A stretch of 42,073 nucleotides of DNA from Leifsonia sp. CL147 (GTDB taxonomy: Bacteria > Actinomycetota > Actinomycetes > Actinomycetales > Microbacteriaceae): assembly GCF_900114565.1 (NCBI RefSeq), contig NZ_FOTM01000026.1, positions 1 through 42,073 on the forward strand. Direction: 5' to 3'. Each line of letters starts with the position of its first letter. Position 1 is the first letter of the stretch. Shown here piece by piece: positions 33,339 to 38,381 of the stretch. The translations under genes and the position numbers were made by a program. The notes under the pieces were generated by a model that was not told the DNA's origin, ran no database searches, and worked only from the letters and a program-made list of their open reading frames with translations.

Positions 33339-33430
33339 GGAGACGTCGCATAGTTCGGCCTAGTGCACCACCCTGCTAAGGTGGAGTCCCCGTAAGGGGA
33401 CCGAGGGTTCAAATCCCTCCGTCTCCGCCA
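33339..33430 (+). tRNA. tRNA-Ser (anticodon GCU), CCA encoded
   Basis: The 7-bp acceptor stem GGAGACG (33339-33345) pairs with CGTCTCC (33420-33426), then discriminator G and encoded CCA at 33427-33430. The anticodon stem is CCACC/GGTGG (33368-33372 with 33380-33384) with loop CTGCTAA and anticodon GCT at 33375-33377. The long variable arm (AGTCCCCGTAAGGGGACC) marks a serine tRNA, and the T-arm contains GGTTCAAATCC. A weak -10 (TATGAT, 33303-33308) precedes it. This gene is the integration site of the following island. Confidence 0.97.
33404..33429 (+). repeat. Left attachment site (attL), within the tRNA-Ser 3' end
   Basis: The last 26 bases of the tRNA before its final A are repeated exactly at 37461-37486. 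The repeat covers the T-arm and 3' acceptor strand, the part of a tRNA typically used by tyrosine integrases, and leaves the tRNA gene complete. Confidence 0.92.
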
Positions 33431-33879
33431 GTAAATATGCTGGTCAGGGTCACTTTCCAACCCCCCGACGGACCAGGATCCCCACAAAAGCCCCACAGTT
33501 CACGCCGTCTCCTCCGCTGGTTCATTGGGAAGCCAGTAAACCGCGGGCCCCACGACTGTGGGAAGTCGCTGTCAATGGATCGTCGCGTATGTCATCGAGT
33601 GGCAGCGGTGGCACGCGAATTGGAGGTCGGCGAACGGAGTAACCTCAGGCGCCCAGTGAGGTGACTGAATACTGCAATCGCCCAGGCGAATCCTTGAAGG
33701 TCCTTAAGCGAGGCGGCCGTTCTGTCCAACGCTCAAGGGGGATGGGCCTCGACCGTACTTGCTTAGTGCTGGCGAGTGGCAATCGCTTGGCCGCGTTTTC
33801 GCGGATCGCCCGCGGCTTCAGTGGCGATGCCGACGGTGGCGTCCGAGGCGGCTGCTATCTTCCGACATGGAGGGACCTA
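33431..33879 (+). other. Left end of the island, no convincing gene
   Basis: About 450 bases. It contains the CCCCACAAAA pair at 33480-33497. Two short frames (33437-33664 and a minus-strand frame 33302-33496 that runs through the tRNA) have no ribosome sites or recognisable content. Probably recombination-site flank and the promoter of the gene starting at 33880. Confidence 0.5.
33480..33497 (+). repeat. CCCCACAAAA pair near attL, candidate integrase arm site
   Basis: CCCCACAAAA-G-CCCCACA is two offset copies of one word with an 11-base period, 50 bases inside attL. Its near-identical counterpart is at 37351-37368, so both ends of the island carry the same doubled motif, as expected of integrase arm-binding sites. 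Confidence 0.5.
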
Positions 33880-34929
33880 ATGTTGAACGCACGCGAGTGG
33901 GCGACTCTGATTCTGCTCGCCCTCGGTGCGGCCCTCTTACTTACCTTGCCGAAAACTCGAGCCGTTGTCGTTGCGGGTATCCCCGGAATCCTCAAAGCCT
34001 TCGATTGGCGAGTGTCACCAGTCTTCGTGCTATTGATGGCATGGATTACCGCATGTCTCGCTCTGGCCTGGCGGGTGGGCCTCTTTGACTGGAGTTTGGT
34101 CAAGGATGCAGCATTCATCACTGCCACGCTCGCGATACCAATGACCTTTCGCATTGTGAACGCTCAGACCGGTTTGGTGATTGTCAAACGGCTCACTGCC
34201 GAGACTCTCGGCTTGACAACGCTGATCGCTTTCTACCTCAACGTCGCGCCATTTCCGCTGTGGGCGGAGTTAGTTCTGCAGCCGACGTTGGCTCTGCTTT
34301 TCGCGATGGCCGCGGTGGCCGGCACCAGAACCGAGTGGGCCCCTGCCCGTAAGTTGATCACCGTCCTGCTTGGGCTCGCCGGAATCGGCGCTCTCGCCTG
34401 GACGACGGCCTCCATCGCTCACGACTGGGCGTCGATGGACTGGGTCGCTCAGCTGCGGTCTTTCCTCATCAGCCTTTGGCTACCCGCGCTCTTGCTTCCG
34501 CTCTTCTATATGGAAGCGTTCCCGATGACGGCGGAAGTTCTGCTCAAGCGCGTCTCGTGGGTCGCTCCTGACCGAACGTTGAGGAGGCGAGTTCGTCTCG
34601 CTATCGTGCTAGGTCTCCATTTTCGAGTGAAGCTCGCGGCTCGCTTCACCGGAAGATACAACAGCGTCGGACGCCTGAGCACTTACCGCGAACGATTCGC
34701 TACATGCGTAGCTTCCGCGATGACGTGCGTCGCGATGACGCGGCCGAGCGAGCGCGCGTCAGCGCCCTCCGAACGAATAGCGGCGTATCTGGTGCGGACG
34801 CCTCAGGCGCCCAACGTGATCGGCGGGAGTTTCACGTTACGAAGGAACGTCTCCGCTGGATTAGCACCTGCGAAATGGGCCGCTACACCGGAAATGGGAA
34901 TCGATACTGGTCCGATGCTGACGGACTGA
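33880..34929 (+). CDS. Polytopic membrane protein of the island, 3' frame probably disrupted
   Basis: A protein of unknown family with about six or seven predicted membrane helices: roughly residues 9-26, 47-65, 77-93, 107-125, 130-148, 158-178 and 190-210. The ATG at 33880 has GGAGGGA five bases upstream, so the frame's longer start at 33661 is rejected. Up to about residue 273 (the STYRERF region) the sequence reads naturally; the remaining 77 residues look like an out-of-frame translation (poor hydrophobic pattern, many Ala/Pro/Arg). A one-base backward shift near 34698 instead leads smoothly into the next open frame. The protein is therefore either truncated here or one of two overlapping genes. 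No known domain. Confidence 0.6.
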   Translation: MLNAREWATLILLALGAALLLTLPKTRAVVVAGIPGILKAFDWRVSPVFVLLMAWITACLALAWRVGLFDWSLVKDAAFITATLAIPMTFRIVNAQTGLVIVKRLTAETLGLTTLIAFYLNVAPFPLWAELVLQPTLALLFAMAAVAGTRTEWAPARKLITVLLGLAGIGALAWTTASIAHDWASMDWVAQLRSFLISLWLPALLLPLFYMEAFPMTAEVLLKRVSWVAPDRTLRRRVRLAIVLGLHFRVKLAARFTGRYNSVGRLSTYRERFATCVASAMTCVAMTRPSERASAPSERIAAYLVRTPQAPNVIGGSFTLRRNVSAGLAPAKWAATPEMGIDTGPMLTD

Positions 34930-35225
34930 CCGATGCGATAGTCGATGCGCCCCGTTACGGACTTCCTGAGCAACACGGATTCGTCATTGAGACCAGTGCA
35001 AACGGCCAGGACTGGCGCGCGTGGCGGACTCTGCCCAGCGGTTGGGTACTTGGCATGGGTGGGGCCGGGTGGCGAAGCGAATGGGTTTTCGCGGGCGACA
35101 GTCCACCTAAGTCTTGGCCGGGGGGAGACGATCCACGGTGGGTCGACAACGTCACGAATCCCGACCTTCCGCCTGACTGGGAGCGAAACGATGAACCGAT
35201 CGTGAGGCCAGTGGAGTCGCTCTAG
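34704..35225 (+). CDS. Soluble protein or C-terminal domain of the preceding membrane protein
   Basis: A 173-residue frame, unrecognised. The N-terminal third is a charged helix (RSFRDDVRRDDAAERARV). The C-terminal part is Trp/Gly/Asp-rich (YTGNGNRYWSDADGL, NGQDWRAWRTLPSGWVLGMGGAGW, NPDLPPDWERND). It overlaps the 3' part of the previous gene by 226 bases. Its ATG has no ribosome site, while joining the frames at about 34698 gives the continuous RERFRYMRSFRDD, which argues for one gene of about 449 codons (33880-35225) broken by a frameshift, natural or from an assembly error. Programmed frameshifting is a weaker alternative. Confidence 0.55.
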   Translation: MRSFRDDVRRDDAAERARVSALRTNSGVSGADASGAQRDRREFHVTKERLRWISTCEMGRYTGNGNRYWSDADGLTDAIVDAPRYGLPEQHGFVIETSANGQDWRAWRTLPSGWVLGMGGAGWRSEWVFAGDSPPKSWPGGDDPRWVDNVTNPDLPPDWERNDEPIVRPVESL

Positions 35226-35370
35226 CAGCGCCAAAGCACGCGCATCAACGAGCGCCGCGTATCAAGCGGGCCCGTCCGAGTACTCGGTTGATTCGCCAGC
35301 AGCGAATCATGATTCCTGGATTGCGTCGCGACCCAATTCGGCGGACGCGGCGGCCTACCAAATGTCTTGG

Positions 35371-35408
35371 TTTTGCGATAGTTTTGCGACACCCTTCACA
35401 GTGAAGGT
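35371..35408 (+). promoter_or_regulatory. Repeats upstream of the AlbA_2 gene
   Basis: GTTTTGCGA occurs twice with an 11-base period (35371-35379 and 35382-35390). It is followed by an inverted repeat, CCTTCAC-A-GTGAAGG (35394-35408). These lie 61 to 98 bases before the AlbA_2 gene and look like regulator or self-binding sites. Confidence 0.5.
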
Positions 35409-35468
35409 GATGACAAAACTTCGTTGAAACCATGCGCACCCGTGTGGCCAAAGCGTTAGTGAAGGGCC

Positions 35469-37268
35469 ATGCAAAACTTAAGGGAAACTTCGATGGACCA
35501 CATTGCCGGAGTGTTGACAGAGATCGTTGCTGGGGCGATTACCGCTGACGACATGGAAACACTCGACATTGAGTTCAAGACCGACGGCCGGTCCCGAAAT
35601 GACGATCTCAAAAACATTGCGGATGCAGCGTCATGCATGGCCAATTCATCAGGCGGCACGATCGTCGTGGGAGTGGACGACCGAACAGCCGGGCCGAGTG
35701 CTTTCGTCGGCACGTCACTCGACCCAGAGCAGACACGACTCCGCATCTACGAGCTCACCAGTCCACCGCTCTTGGTCGAAGCAGAGCTCCGTACTACTTT
35801 TCCCGGCAACGTCCTCGTTTTGAGCGTGCCGAACAGTACGCAGGTTCACAGCGCGAACAACAAGGTTCCAACTGAACGAATCGACCAGCATTGCAAGCCG
35901 ATGACGAGCGACCGTATCGCAACCGTGACGTCGCAGAAAACTGGCCGAGACTGGAGTGTCCAGAGAAGCAACTGGCGCGCTGACCACGTGGATCCCGTCG
36001 CCATGCAGGTGGCAAGGGAAATGCTCGCGCGCTCCAATGATCTTGGGAAGCGTCGGCTCGCAGAAGCGAGTGACATAGAACTGCTCCGCGCGGTGGGCGT
36101 GGTGCTTGAGGACCAGTCACTCACGAACGCTGGCGCACTACTCTTCACTCGCGCATTCGACGACGTGACGCTTATCGCCTACACGCACCGGCGAACGCCC
36201 GCTGGACAGCTGACATCGAACGAACACCTCACTGGCCCGCTTGTCGTCGCTGTTCAACGCGTCTTTGATCTGATCGATGCGCGACTTGAGACCACGCCCG
36301 TCTCGATCGGCAAGGGCCAGCAACTTCATATCGCTGATCTTCCTGAAGCTGCTGTGCGCGAGGCTGTCGTGAACGGGATCATGCATCGTGAGTACTTCAG
36401 CATCGATCGGACAGCTGTCGAACACACTCTTACCCAATTGCGGGTCTCGTCACCCGGCGGATTTGTGCCTGGCGTAAGCGTCGATAATGTTCTGACGACG
36501 TCGTCCCGCACCCGAAATACAAATCTGGCCAATGCGATGCGCATGCTCGGTCTGGCTGAGACCGCAGGGTCCGGCGTTGACCGCATGTACGCAGAAATGG
36601 CGCGGGTTGGGCACGAACCTCCCCGATACGCTGCCGACCCGACACGGGTGGAAGTCACCTTGCTGGGTGGGGCTCCGAATACCGCGCTGGCGCGGTACGT
36701 GGCGACGCTGCCGCAAGAGGAGGCCGCCGACGCGGACACTATGCTCATCCTGTTGACTCTCTTGACGCGCAAGACGGTTAGTGCAGAAGAACTCATGCCA
36801 CTGCTGCAAAAGGCGTCTGTGGATGAGGCTCAATCAGTGCTCGCGCGTCTAAGCGGCGACGAGACCCCTCTGCTCGAGCCAACCCGGGAGACCGTTCGAC
36901 GCGCGCGCCCGAGATATAGGTTGCGAGAGGGGGCGCTGGCGGCCCTCGGGCCGGCTGTCACATACCGGCGCCGCACTACGGATCAGCTCGATCGCAAGAT
37001 CATCGAACTGGTGAACGAGACTGGCACGATCAACGCCCGGATGGTGAGGATCCTCTTGGACCTGGATACGGTTGGCGCGTCCCGGGTACTCGCCGACCTT
37101 GTTGAACGAGAAATCCTGATCAAGACGTCTGAGGCGACCCGCGGGCCGAGCGTCACGTACGGCCGCGGCGCAGCCTTCCCGTCAAAGTCAAAATCAAGGC
37201 CCGCAGACGGGCCGATTGAATCGCAAGAGCACGACCCGAATCAATTGCCGTTCGACGACCTCGAGTAG
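35469..37268 (+). CDS. AlbA_2 (Schlafen-like) protein with GHKL-type ATPase region and winged helices
   Basis: A 599-residue protein. The AlbA_2/Schlafen core is at about 20-135: ETLDIEFK, then DDLKNIADAASCMANSSGG and TIVVGVDD. The GHKL-type ATPase region of the RecG-like AlbA_2 group follows, with an N-box-like EAAVREAVVNGIMHREY (about residue 299) and G-box-like AETAGSGVDRMY (about 364). The last 150 residues look like winged helices. Relatives are variously annotated as transcriptional regulators or ATP-binding proteins, and AlbA_2 and Schlafen proteins occur in anti-phage islands; no function can be assigned. Start ATG at 35469 or 35493 (the latter after AAGGGAA). It is the island's best-conserved gene. 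Confidence 0.85.
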   Translation: MQNLRETSMDHIAGVLTEIVAGAITADDMETLDIEFKTDGRSRNDDLKNIADAASCMANSSGGTIVVGVDDRTAGPSAFVGTSLDPEQTRLRIYELTSPPLLVEAELRTTFPGNVLVLSVPNSTQVHSANNKVPTERIDQHCKPMTSDRIATVTSQKTGRDWSVQRSNWRADHVDPVAMQVAREMLARSNDLGKRRLAEASDIELLRAVGVVLEDQSLTNAGALLFTRAFDDVTLIAYTHRRTPAGQLTSNEHLTGPLVVAVQRVFDLIDARLETTPVSIGKGQQLHIADLPEAAVREAVVNGIMHREYFSIDRTAVEHTLTQLRVSSPGGFVPGVSVDNVLTTSSRTRNTNLANAMRMLGLAETAGSGVDRMYAEMARVGHEPPRYAADPTRVEVTLLGGAPNTALARYVATLPQEEAADADTMLILLTLLTRKTVSAEELMPLLQKASVDEAQSVLARLSGDETPLLEPTRETVRRARPRYRLREGALAALGPAVTYRRRTTDQLDRKIIELVNETGTINARMVRILLDLDTVGASRVLADLVEREILIKTSEATRGPSVTYGRGAAFPSKSKSRPADGPIESQEHDPNQLPFDDLE

Positions 37269-37350
37269 CGAGCTTGTGGTTTCAACTGGACAACGCCGCG
37301 CCGGTCGGTTTGTCGGAATGAAGCGTGCGGCAGCCGCCATTTCAAGGACG

Positions 37351-37368
37351 CCCCACAAAAACCCCACA
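37351..37368 (+). repeat. CCCCACAAAA pair near attR, candidate integrase arm site
   Basis: CCCCACAAAA-A-CCCCACA differs from the left copy (33480-33497) at one base and lies 92 bases inside the right attachment repeat, in the same orientation. Confidence 0.5.
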
Positions 37369-37460
37369 ACCGTGGTCAGCCGAGAAGGTGCTTGGTCAAC
37401 CGAGAGACGTGAAATTCCGCGGTTTCCGGGGCATCGCCGAGCGGCTTGAGGAGCGCCGTC

Positions 37461-37486
37461 AGGGTTCAAATCCCTCCGTCTCCGCC
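37461..37486 (+). repeat. Right attachment site (attR)
   Basis: Exact copy of the 26-bp tRNA-Ser 3' end at 33404-33429. The preceding bases (GCCGAGCGGCTTGAGGAGCG, from 37437) resemble a tRNA D-arm but no complete tRNA can be folded. Confidence 0.9.
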
Positions 37487-37496
37487 GATCGAAACC

Positions 37497-37524
37497 CCCG
37501 GAAAGTCAACGATTCCGGGTTTTT
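37497..37524 (+). terminator. Intrinsic terminator beyond attR, probably the original tRNA-Ser terminator
   Basis: CCCGGAA (37497-37503) pairs with TTCCGGG (37513-37519) across a nine-base loop, followed by five Ts. It lies ten bases beyond the tRNA-end repeat, just where a tRNA terminator would lie if the island were removed. The left copy has no such hairpin. Confidence 0.75.
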
Positions 37525-37973
37525 GTGTGTGCCGACTTCGATGATTCCGTCGACCTCGACCGCGTTCTCGGAGACGCGGATGCGTCGCCGCTCGAAGTCG
37601 ATGTCCTTGACCCGCAGGCCGTCCATCTCGGCCCAGAACAGGCCGGTGTAGCAGAGCAGGAGGACGATCGCCGCTCGGTCGCCCGACGCGGTGGCCAGGT
37701 CGTGAACCTGCTGGTGTGTGAGGTAGAGGTGCTCCTTCGGGACCTTGCGGGGCAGCTCGATCGCCAGAGCCGGGTCCTGCGTGATGCGCCGATCACGCAT
37801 CGCGATGTCCAGAATGCCAGCCAGCACGCCGCGCGCGTGGATCGCGACGGTCGGCGAGCTGACCTTCGACATCGTGGCGATCCAGGTCGGCACTTCGCTG
37901 TGACGGATGTCGCCAACGCGACGGCGCGCCCATTTCGGAGCGACGTGATTACTCCACGATCCTTCAGGCGGCC

Positions 37974-38381
37974 CTAGCGACGACGGCTTGAGATTTGCTG
38001 CGGACCGGCGGCGCCGATCTCCAGGGCCATCTTCCCCGCAAAGCAGGCAGAGGCCGCCCGGTCGGGGGCAGGGGGCACGTCATCGGCGAGGGGCACCCCG
38101 TGAACGGCGCGGAGCACGTACGCGTGCAGTCGCTCCAGGGCGCCCTCGTCCGGGCCGGCGAGCATCGCGGGCGCTATCTGCCCCAGCCGGACGAAGTACG
38201 CGGCCATCGCCTGCACCAGCACTCCGCGTTTGCCGTCGAACGCAGCATAGAGACTGCCGCGGCCGAGGCCGGTCGCGGCACTGATGTCGTCGACGCTCGT
38301 CCCGTTGTAGCCCGATGCGCGGAACTGCCGCTCAGCGGCATGGAGGACGTGTTCGCGATCGAAGCTTCGTGGTCTTGCCAT
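37974..38381 (-). CDS. TetR-family regulator, C-terminally truncated
   Basis: A 135-residue product against a usual 190 or so. The N-terminal helix-turn-helix is intact (MARPRSFDREHVLHAAERQF, then DISAATGLGRGSLYAAFDGK). The ligand domain begins normally and reaches CFAGKMALEIGA at about residue 125, then ends in GPQQISSRRR, encoded by integrase remnant DNA in another frame. The ATG at 38381 follows from the family's start; a longer frame to 38624 crosses the divergent promoter. It is divergent from an SDR gene with paired ATCAGTAC sites between. The loss of the C-terminal dimer helices would weaken repression, so the neighbouring operon may now be constitutive. Confidence 0.82.
   Translation of the reverse strand: MARPRSFDREHVLHAAERQFRASGYNGTSVDDISAATGLGRGSLYAAFDGKRGVLVQAMAAYFVRLGQIAPAMLAGPDEGALERLHAYVLRAVHGVPLADDVPPAPDRAASACFAGKMALEIGAAGPQQISSRRR

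Follow-up and report, generated by a model that had tools for sequence, protein, structure and literature searches.

A 4.06-kb island at a tRNA-Ser(GCU) gene was found in the window, which is the whole stretch of 42,073 nucleotides of Leifsonia sp. CL147 that was analysed. It is fairly probable that this island, at 33404-37486, is a non-autonomous CIME-type island, which would need the integrase of an ICE to move and would supply its host with one intact anti-phage gene of the Schlafen type. In the following, genomes are given as G numbers, with G000 for the genome of the window.

The complete tRNA-Ser(GCU) gene, the target of integration, was placed by ARAGORN at 33339..33430 on the plus strand. 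The left core repeat (33404..33429, +) lies inside its 3' end and consists of the last 26 bp of the gene before the final base. The right core repeat (37461..37486, +) is an exact second copy, as the sequence-only reading had stated. By comparison, the other nine direct-repeat families between 32500 and 39500 are all imperfect, and the tRNA used as a query found only two matches in the host genome (E <= 0.001), the tRNA and the right core. The interior has a GC content of 0.602, compared to 0.688 in the left flank and 0.677 in the right flank, and lies below every one of 153 overlapping 4030-bp segments outside the island (0.635-0.738); the difference in base composition claimed from the letters alone was confirmed. 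No match to PF00589, the Pfam family of tyrosine integrases, was found inside 33404-37486, and Pfam showed no transfer gene among the ORFs of the island.

The tRNA-Ser(GCU) gene is present in all 28 genus genomes examined, and its 3' side is a hotspot in the genus. On the left of the tRNA, a relative of the DUF2510 gene keeps its position in 24 of the 27 genus relatives (it is absent in G003, G017, and G027). On the right, the contents vary among the downstream regions of the 27 relatives. In the 28 genomes, the tRNA 3' end (query 55-92) recurs as 14 short copies, 13 of them downstream on the contig of the tRNA and one on another contig. A repeat spread widely away from tRNA genes, which the earlier reading had named as a finding that would overturn it, was thus not observed. 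Eight longer partial copies, several of them elsewhere, resemble pieces of the tRNA or other tRNA-like matches.

Each end of the island also carries a doubled CCCCACA motif. The left copy, CCCCACAAAAGCCCCACA (33480..33497, +), starts 76 bp past the start of the left core, and the right copy, CCCCACAAAAACCCCACA (37351..37368, +), starts 110 bp ahead of the start of the right core. Shuffling gave an expectation of 0.00 for a motif repeated near both ends. A degenerate form of the arm pattern occurred 17 times in nine of the 28 genomes, with no occurrence of the reversed control. Fourteen of these sites lie next to a copy of the core, either at tRNA-Ser(GCU) or downstream of it. Of the other three, one lies beside an exact core on a different contig (G001, contig C3) and one beside a degenerate core (G004); the third, in G007, is located about 30 kb past the tRNA, and no core could be recognised there. 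A chance repeat was rejected on the basis of the exact core, its sole matches in the genome, and these two controls.

The spacing of core and arm is fixed. With looser matching, the distance from core start to arm start was 74-77 bp in 8/8 window-type left ends (G000, G006b, G008, G010, G011, G016, G017b, and G018), and the distance from arm start to core start was 109-111 bp in 11/11 right ends with a recognisable core (G000, G001, G006b, G006c, G008, G009, G010, G011, G016, G017b, and G026). In the attP of a tyrosine integrase, arm repeats lie on both sides of a core, at a fixed distance from it. Because the island ends resemble this arrangement, the doubled CCCCACA motif is probably an arm site to which an integrase would bind.

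In a scan of genome contigs, the left-end pattern matched L. aquatica DSM 20146, L. shinshuensis DP-L11, Leifsonia sp. C5G2, and Leifsonia sp. Leaf336, and it was found in 3/398 genomes of a family sample, all three within the 10 genus genomes of that sample. The contig scan gave 14 stretches in all, which were four from Leifsonia, nine from Flavobacteriia, and one from Bryobacterales. The nine Flavobacteriia loci (L073-L076, L078, L080-L082, and L084) show the same order of parts, with a tRNA-like 3' end, then a hairpin, and then a doubled CCCCAC motif, CCCCACATAATCCCCAC. Since these matches come from another phylum, the doubled motif is not unique to Leifsonia, and it may be ancient or convergent. 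They were excluded from the counts of arms and ends.

Seven islands with both window-type ends were found in 7/28 genomes, ranging from 1.5 to 22 kb: G000 (the window island, 4.06 kb), G008 (3.26 kb), G010 (7.08 kb), G011 (1.48 kb), G016 (3.87 kb), G006b (about 22 kb), and G017b (about 17 kb). This count does not include G009 and G022, which have an ICE-type left end; G006c, which has lost its left arm; G018, whose right end was not found; G004, with a degenerate core; G007, with a left-type end without a core; and the elements of G015, G021, and G027, which have other ends. By BLASTN (E <= 1e-4), the first 43-100 bp of the window island are common to G006b, G008, G010, G011, G016, and G018. 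The last 134-137 bp, starting from the right arm, are common to G006b, G006c, G008, G009, G010, G011, G016, and G017b, and this conserved right terminal module (37351..37486, +) is also found in ICE-type elements. Apart from the ends, the window island matches the other elements by the core only. G006b and G008 have 186 bp of left end in common. The gene set had been proposed as a possible recurring unit; since the shared termini enclose different interiors, the recurring unit is instead the pair of ends.

The right ends most similar to that of the window island belonged to the hosts that are less related (rho -0.71, n=8, P 0.048; G017, which has no DUF2510 match, and G004 were omitted), and rho was -0.47 over 36 pairs, which are non-independent. 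This inverse relation weakly points to horizontal movement. At E <= 0.001 in 16 genomes, no PF00589 match was found inside any of the seven two-ended islands, and none was found beside any of the eight window-type left ends, including that of G018. Among the matches listed from open-licence literature, no title or abstract start describes this Leifsonia island family.

The absence of an integrase from the island, as first reported, holds for 33404-37486, but a remnant lies just outside the right repeat. This fragment (37519..38004, -) covers amino acids 75-236 of 409, with 79% identity to a 409-aa relative. It lies directly beyond the right core, with a hairpin like that of G001 in between, and it marks the left end of an older ICE-type element whose integrase is otherwise gone. 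Intact integrases at the same tRNA, 79-83% identical to the fragment, were found in G001 (413 aa) and G026 (409 aa), and both elements carry the same arm, 86 bp past the core start. In G026, the cores of the element are 53 kb apart, and its right end is of the same type as that of the window island. Ten of its ORFs were scanned, and the matches included a TrwC relaxase, a TraG-type coupling protein, ParB, an HTH protein, and the integrase; the relaxase, coupling protein, and integrase identify it as an ICE. Its right module aligns with that of the window at 72%, but only 45 bp are shared at E <= 1e-4, which counts against our explanation. In the same ICE (L169:43-3482), a DACNG-DACNH-DAC protein adjoins a HEPN_LA2681 protein, with no PADLOC match; these are a possible unlisted signalling defence pair.

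Also counting against our explanation, the genomes covered, one per species, showed no excision, transfer, or empty site, and the host genome yielded no intact cognate integrase at E <= 0.001. The only other integrase match of the host at this threshold was a 390-aa protein on C35 with 47% identity. It was rejected as the helper due to this low identity, the lack of a tRNA in the surrounding 16 kb, and the arm pattern, which occurs nowhere in the host genome but at the island. At least three other types of integrase use the same tRNA: those of G017 and G021, at 59% to the fragment, and that of G006, with 387 aa. Another helper is thus possible, which counts against a single one.

The order of elements in G008 matches that of the window: the island, a core, and then an integrase in broken pieces. 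In G011, the arm of the left end runs into a match to the end of the ICE integrase frame (79 bp including the arm, 88.6%), and G009, with its ICE-type left end, keeps a piece of integrase between its repeats. Integrase loss, the route by which CIMEs form, can thus give rise to such islands. These traces also agree with a second explanation, in which the island is what remains of an ICE after its integrase and transfer genes were lost in place, so that the ends persist by descent and no movement takes place now. The broken cargo gene described below and the truncated neighbouring integrase fit this explanation as well. We consider it rather unlikely, since the seven islands retain both ends at a fixed spacing around different interiors, no PF00589 gene lies beside any of the eight window-type left ends, and the similarity of the right module opposes host relatedness, although this last result is weak. 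The 8/8 left ends without an adjacent integrase also make it possible that the lineage stays integrase-less.

The preferred reading, that of a CIME-type island that may still move, was compared with known systems. The window island has attL and attR, with exact cores and arm motifs at both ends, and it lacks integration and transfer genes (no PF00589 match inside and no transfer gene by Pfam on the ORFs). With regard to an origin by deletion of an ICE or IME, the right module is common to ICE-type elements, and the island keeps no integrase sequence. With regard to cis-mobilisation by an accreting ICE, the tandem order with an integrase remnant was observed. CIMEs are described in reports on ICESt1-related islands of Streptococcus thermophilus (PMC5704250) and on TR1, beside the ICE TR2, in Streptomyces (PMC8369830). 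The Leifsonia islands are similar to CIMEs in keeping attL and attR without integration or transfer genes and in their tandem position with an ICE or its remains. Unlike CIMEs, they share termini around unrelated cargo across species of one genus, and their left ends are unlike those of the elements with an integrase, which would presumably mobilise them. An IME was rejected because there is no integrase inside.

The Pseudomonas phage-defence islands I23, I44, and I55, located at tmRNA or tRNA genes (PMC12595487), are likewise small, sit at an RNA gene between direct repeats, and carry defence cargo without autonomous transfer. However, they encode a tyrosine integrase, IntY, and the Leifsonia islands encode none. 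CALINs, which are integron cassette arrays without an integrase (PMC11389934), also combine cargo and recombination sites with an integrase encoded elsewhere. Their attC sites are folded, whereas the Leifsonia islands would use a tRNA core and presumably double-stranded arm-type motifs.

The sequence-only reading had proposed that the island is moved by a helper, like a satellite. The shared arms, the termini, and the ICE relatives make the integrase of another element the most likely helper, which retains the first part of this proposal; the second part, a phage satellite, found no support. A helper phage that packages and moves the island would suit its small size and its lack of transfer genes, and yet we find this very improbable. 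The scanned ORFs include no phage structural, packaging, or replication gene except for one labelled "DNA helicase" (phrog_12156), and this label corresponds to the AlbA_2-GHKL family of the 599-aa protein described below. The right end had no match in 50,697 phage records or in plasmid records, and its pattern occurred in none of the IMG/VR contigs. Satellites of the PICI, P4, and PICMI types were rejected due to the missing integrase and because PHROG, run on two island genes, showed no gene for replication or packaging interference.

The intact cargo gene (35469..37268, +) encodes a Schlafen-type protein of 599 aa, with a later ATG possible as the start. Pfam placed SLFN_AlbA_2 (PF04326) at amino acids 30-146 (55.3 bits against a cut-off of 25.3) and HATPase_c_4, a GHKL ATPase (PF13749), at amino acids 323-398 (60.1 bits against a cut-off of 26). 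One solved relative was found, PDB 3lmm (E 4e-31). The order of AlbA_2 and then a GHKL-type ATPase is that of bacterial Schlafen-type proteins (AlbA_2, GHKL, and wHTH; PDB 3lmm), so the architecture is one that is already described. The window gene is different in that it lies on its own island and not beside BREX, and no wHTH was detected by Pfam at E <= 0.1, which counts against our explanation. The AlbA_2 domain contains E30, E35, and D70/D71, with a spacing that we take to resemble the acidic triad of SLFN13. The aligned relatives are distant (about 25-31% identity), and those in phage and plasmid records (21 and 83 records, respectively) are all under 60% identity. In viral contigs, nine stretches fit the pattern of the AlbA_2 protein and none was confirmed.

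Based on its domains, the gene probably defends the cell against viruses, and its product is probably an anti-phage RNase that would be switched on during infection. The protein could instead be a regulator or a housekeeping ATP-binding protein, with the value of the island lying outside of defence. Plasmid relatives are annotated as ATP-binding proteins, RNA-binding-domain proteins, or a helicase, PADLOC gave only Argonaute-type profile matches to part of the protein (which we read as matches to a shared domain), and no experiment on its clade was found in the literature. We judge a role outside of defence to be unlikely. The resemblance to the SLFN13 triad argues against it, as does the content of the small two-ended islands: the AlbA_2-GHKL architecture (about 25% identity) occurs in two of the five and PADLOC-listed systems in two others. 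In addition, PMC12839542 reports Schlafen RNases beside BREX loci, combined with a minimal histidine kinase and a wHTH.

The remainder of the cargo is a single broken gene. Its N-terminal membrane part lies at 33880..34703 (+), and its C-terminal soluble part follows in another frame at 34704..35225 (+). The two frames form one protein of 443-463 aa in four relatives (G050, G271, G124, and G007). The copy in the window must therefore have either a break or an assembly error near 34.70 kb, and a break in one of the two cargo genes counts against our explanation. In the G198 relative, the membrane part bears a different C-terminus. The initial list of three genes was thus correct for the intact AlbA_2/GHKL gene, but the membrane and soluble frames had been counted as two. 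No AlbA_2 gene was found near the membrane-family relatives at 5/5 loci inspected, one of which is a 4.8-kb contig; G160, which also had matches, was left out. Given the single broken gene, this lack of association, and the described AlbA_2-GHKL architecture, the idea of an undescribed multi-gene system was abandoned. Judging from G198 and G050 (L160:7028-8773 and L159:6131-9411), the membrane family may be the membrane part of other defence-type loci. By eye, the G050 locus of this family lies near a TIR-like protein.

The cargo of the other islands was surveyed through their main ORFs. The five two-ended islands below 10 kb comprise two with PADLOC-listed systems, two with Schlafen-type genes, and one with nothing recognised. 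The G008 island has a HipA/HIRAN pair, listed by PADLOC as PDC-M03A and B, the G010 island has a CBASS cyclase, E1-E2, and a JAB-TIR-SAVED effector, and the G016 island has another AlbA_2-HATPase protein, about 25% identical to that of the window. Outside of the strict seven, PADLOC matched PDC-S73 in G018 and PycC and PycTM in G009. The suggestion of defence-type cargo, made from the window sequence, was upheld by the domain content and by these other islands. Beside the AlbA_2 gene of G016 (L054:12066-12896), a 276-aa protein appears Ntn-hydrolase-like by eye and has no Pfam or PADLOC match. The smallest island, G011 (1.5 kb), holds a 175-aa gene (L055:14873-15400), also with no Pfam or PADLOC match. 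Ten proteins scanned from the G006 and G017 regions showed rhamnosidase and transport genes in G006b and sialidase-like and transport genes in G017b. The sugar-use cargo of these long islands (L170-L173) shows that the end module also encloses genes other than defence genes.

The conserved ends serve as a search handle, since they enclose defence-type genes in 4/5 small two-ended islands, and the gene in the fifth, that of G011, thereby becomes a candidate single-gene system. For the window island, the following course of events is proposed. The island sits in tandem with, and upstream of, an older ICE-type element that survives as an integrase fragment. An incoming ICE would bring a tyrosine integrase of the kind that is intact in two Leifsonia species (G001 and G026). 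This integrase would act on the island ends, causing excision and integration elsewhere, either of the island alone in trans or together with the ICE. In the new host, the Schlafen-type protein would then give protection by cleaving RNA once infection is sensed.

It is a standing question how an island moves when it lacks a recombinase gene. Since the ends are known to the base, a helper ICE can be proposed, and seven two-ended islands share termini around different contents, movement by a borrowed integrase is open to testing with small DNA substrates. Tentatively, and with doubt outweighing confidence, we suggest that Leifsonia may harbour cassette islands that form a stable lineage without an integrase. 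The minimal mobile unit of this lineage would be an attachment module in two parts, of up to about 190 bp on the left and 137 bp on the right. It would swap whole immune systems or sugar-use clusters between its ends and would be moved in trans by the integrase of an ICE at the same tRNA, much like the cassettes of integrons.
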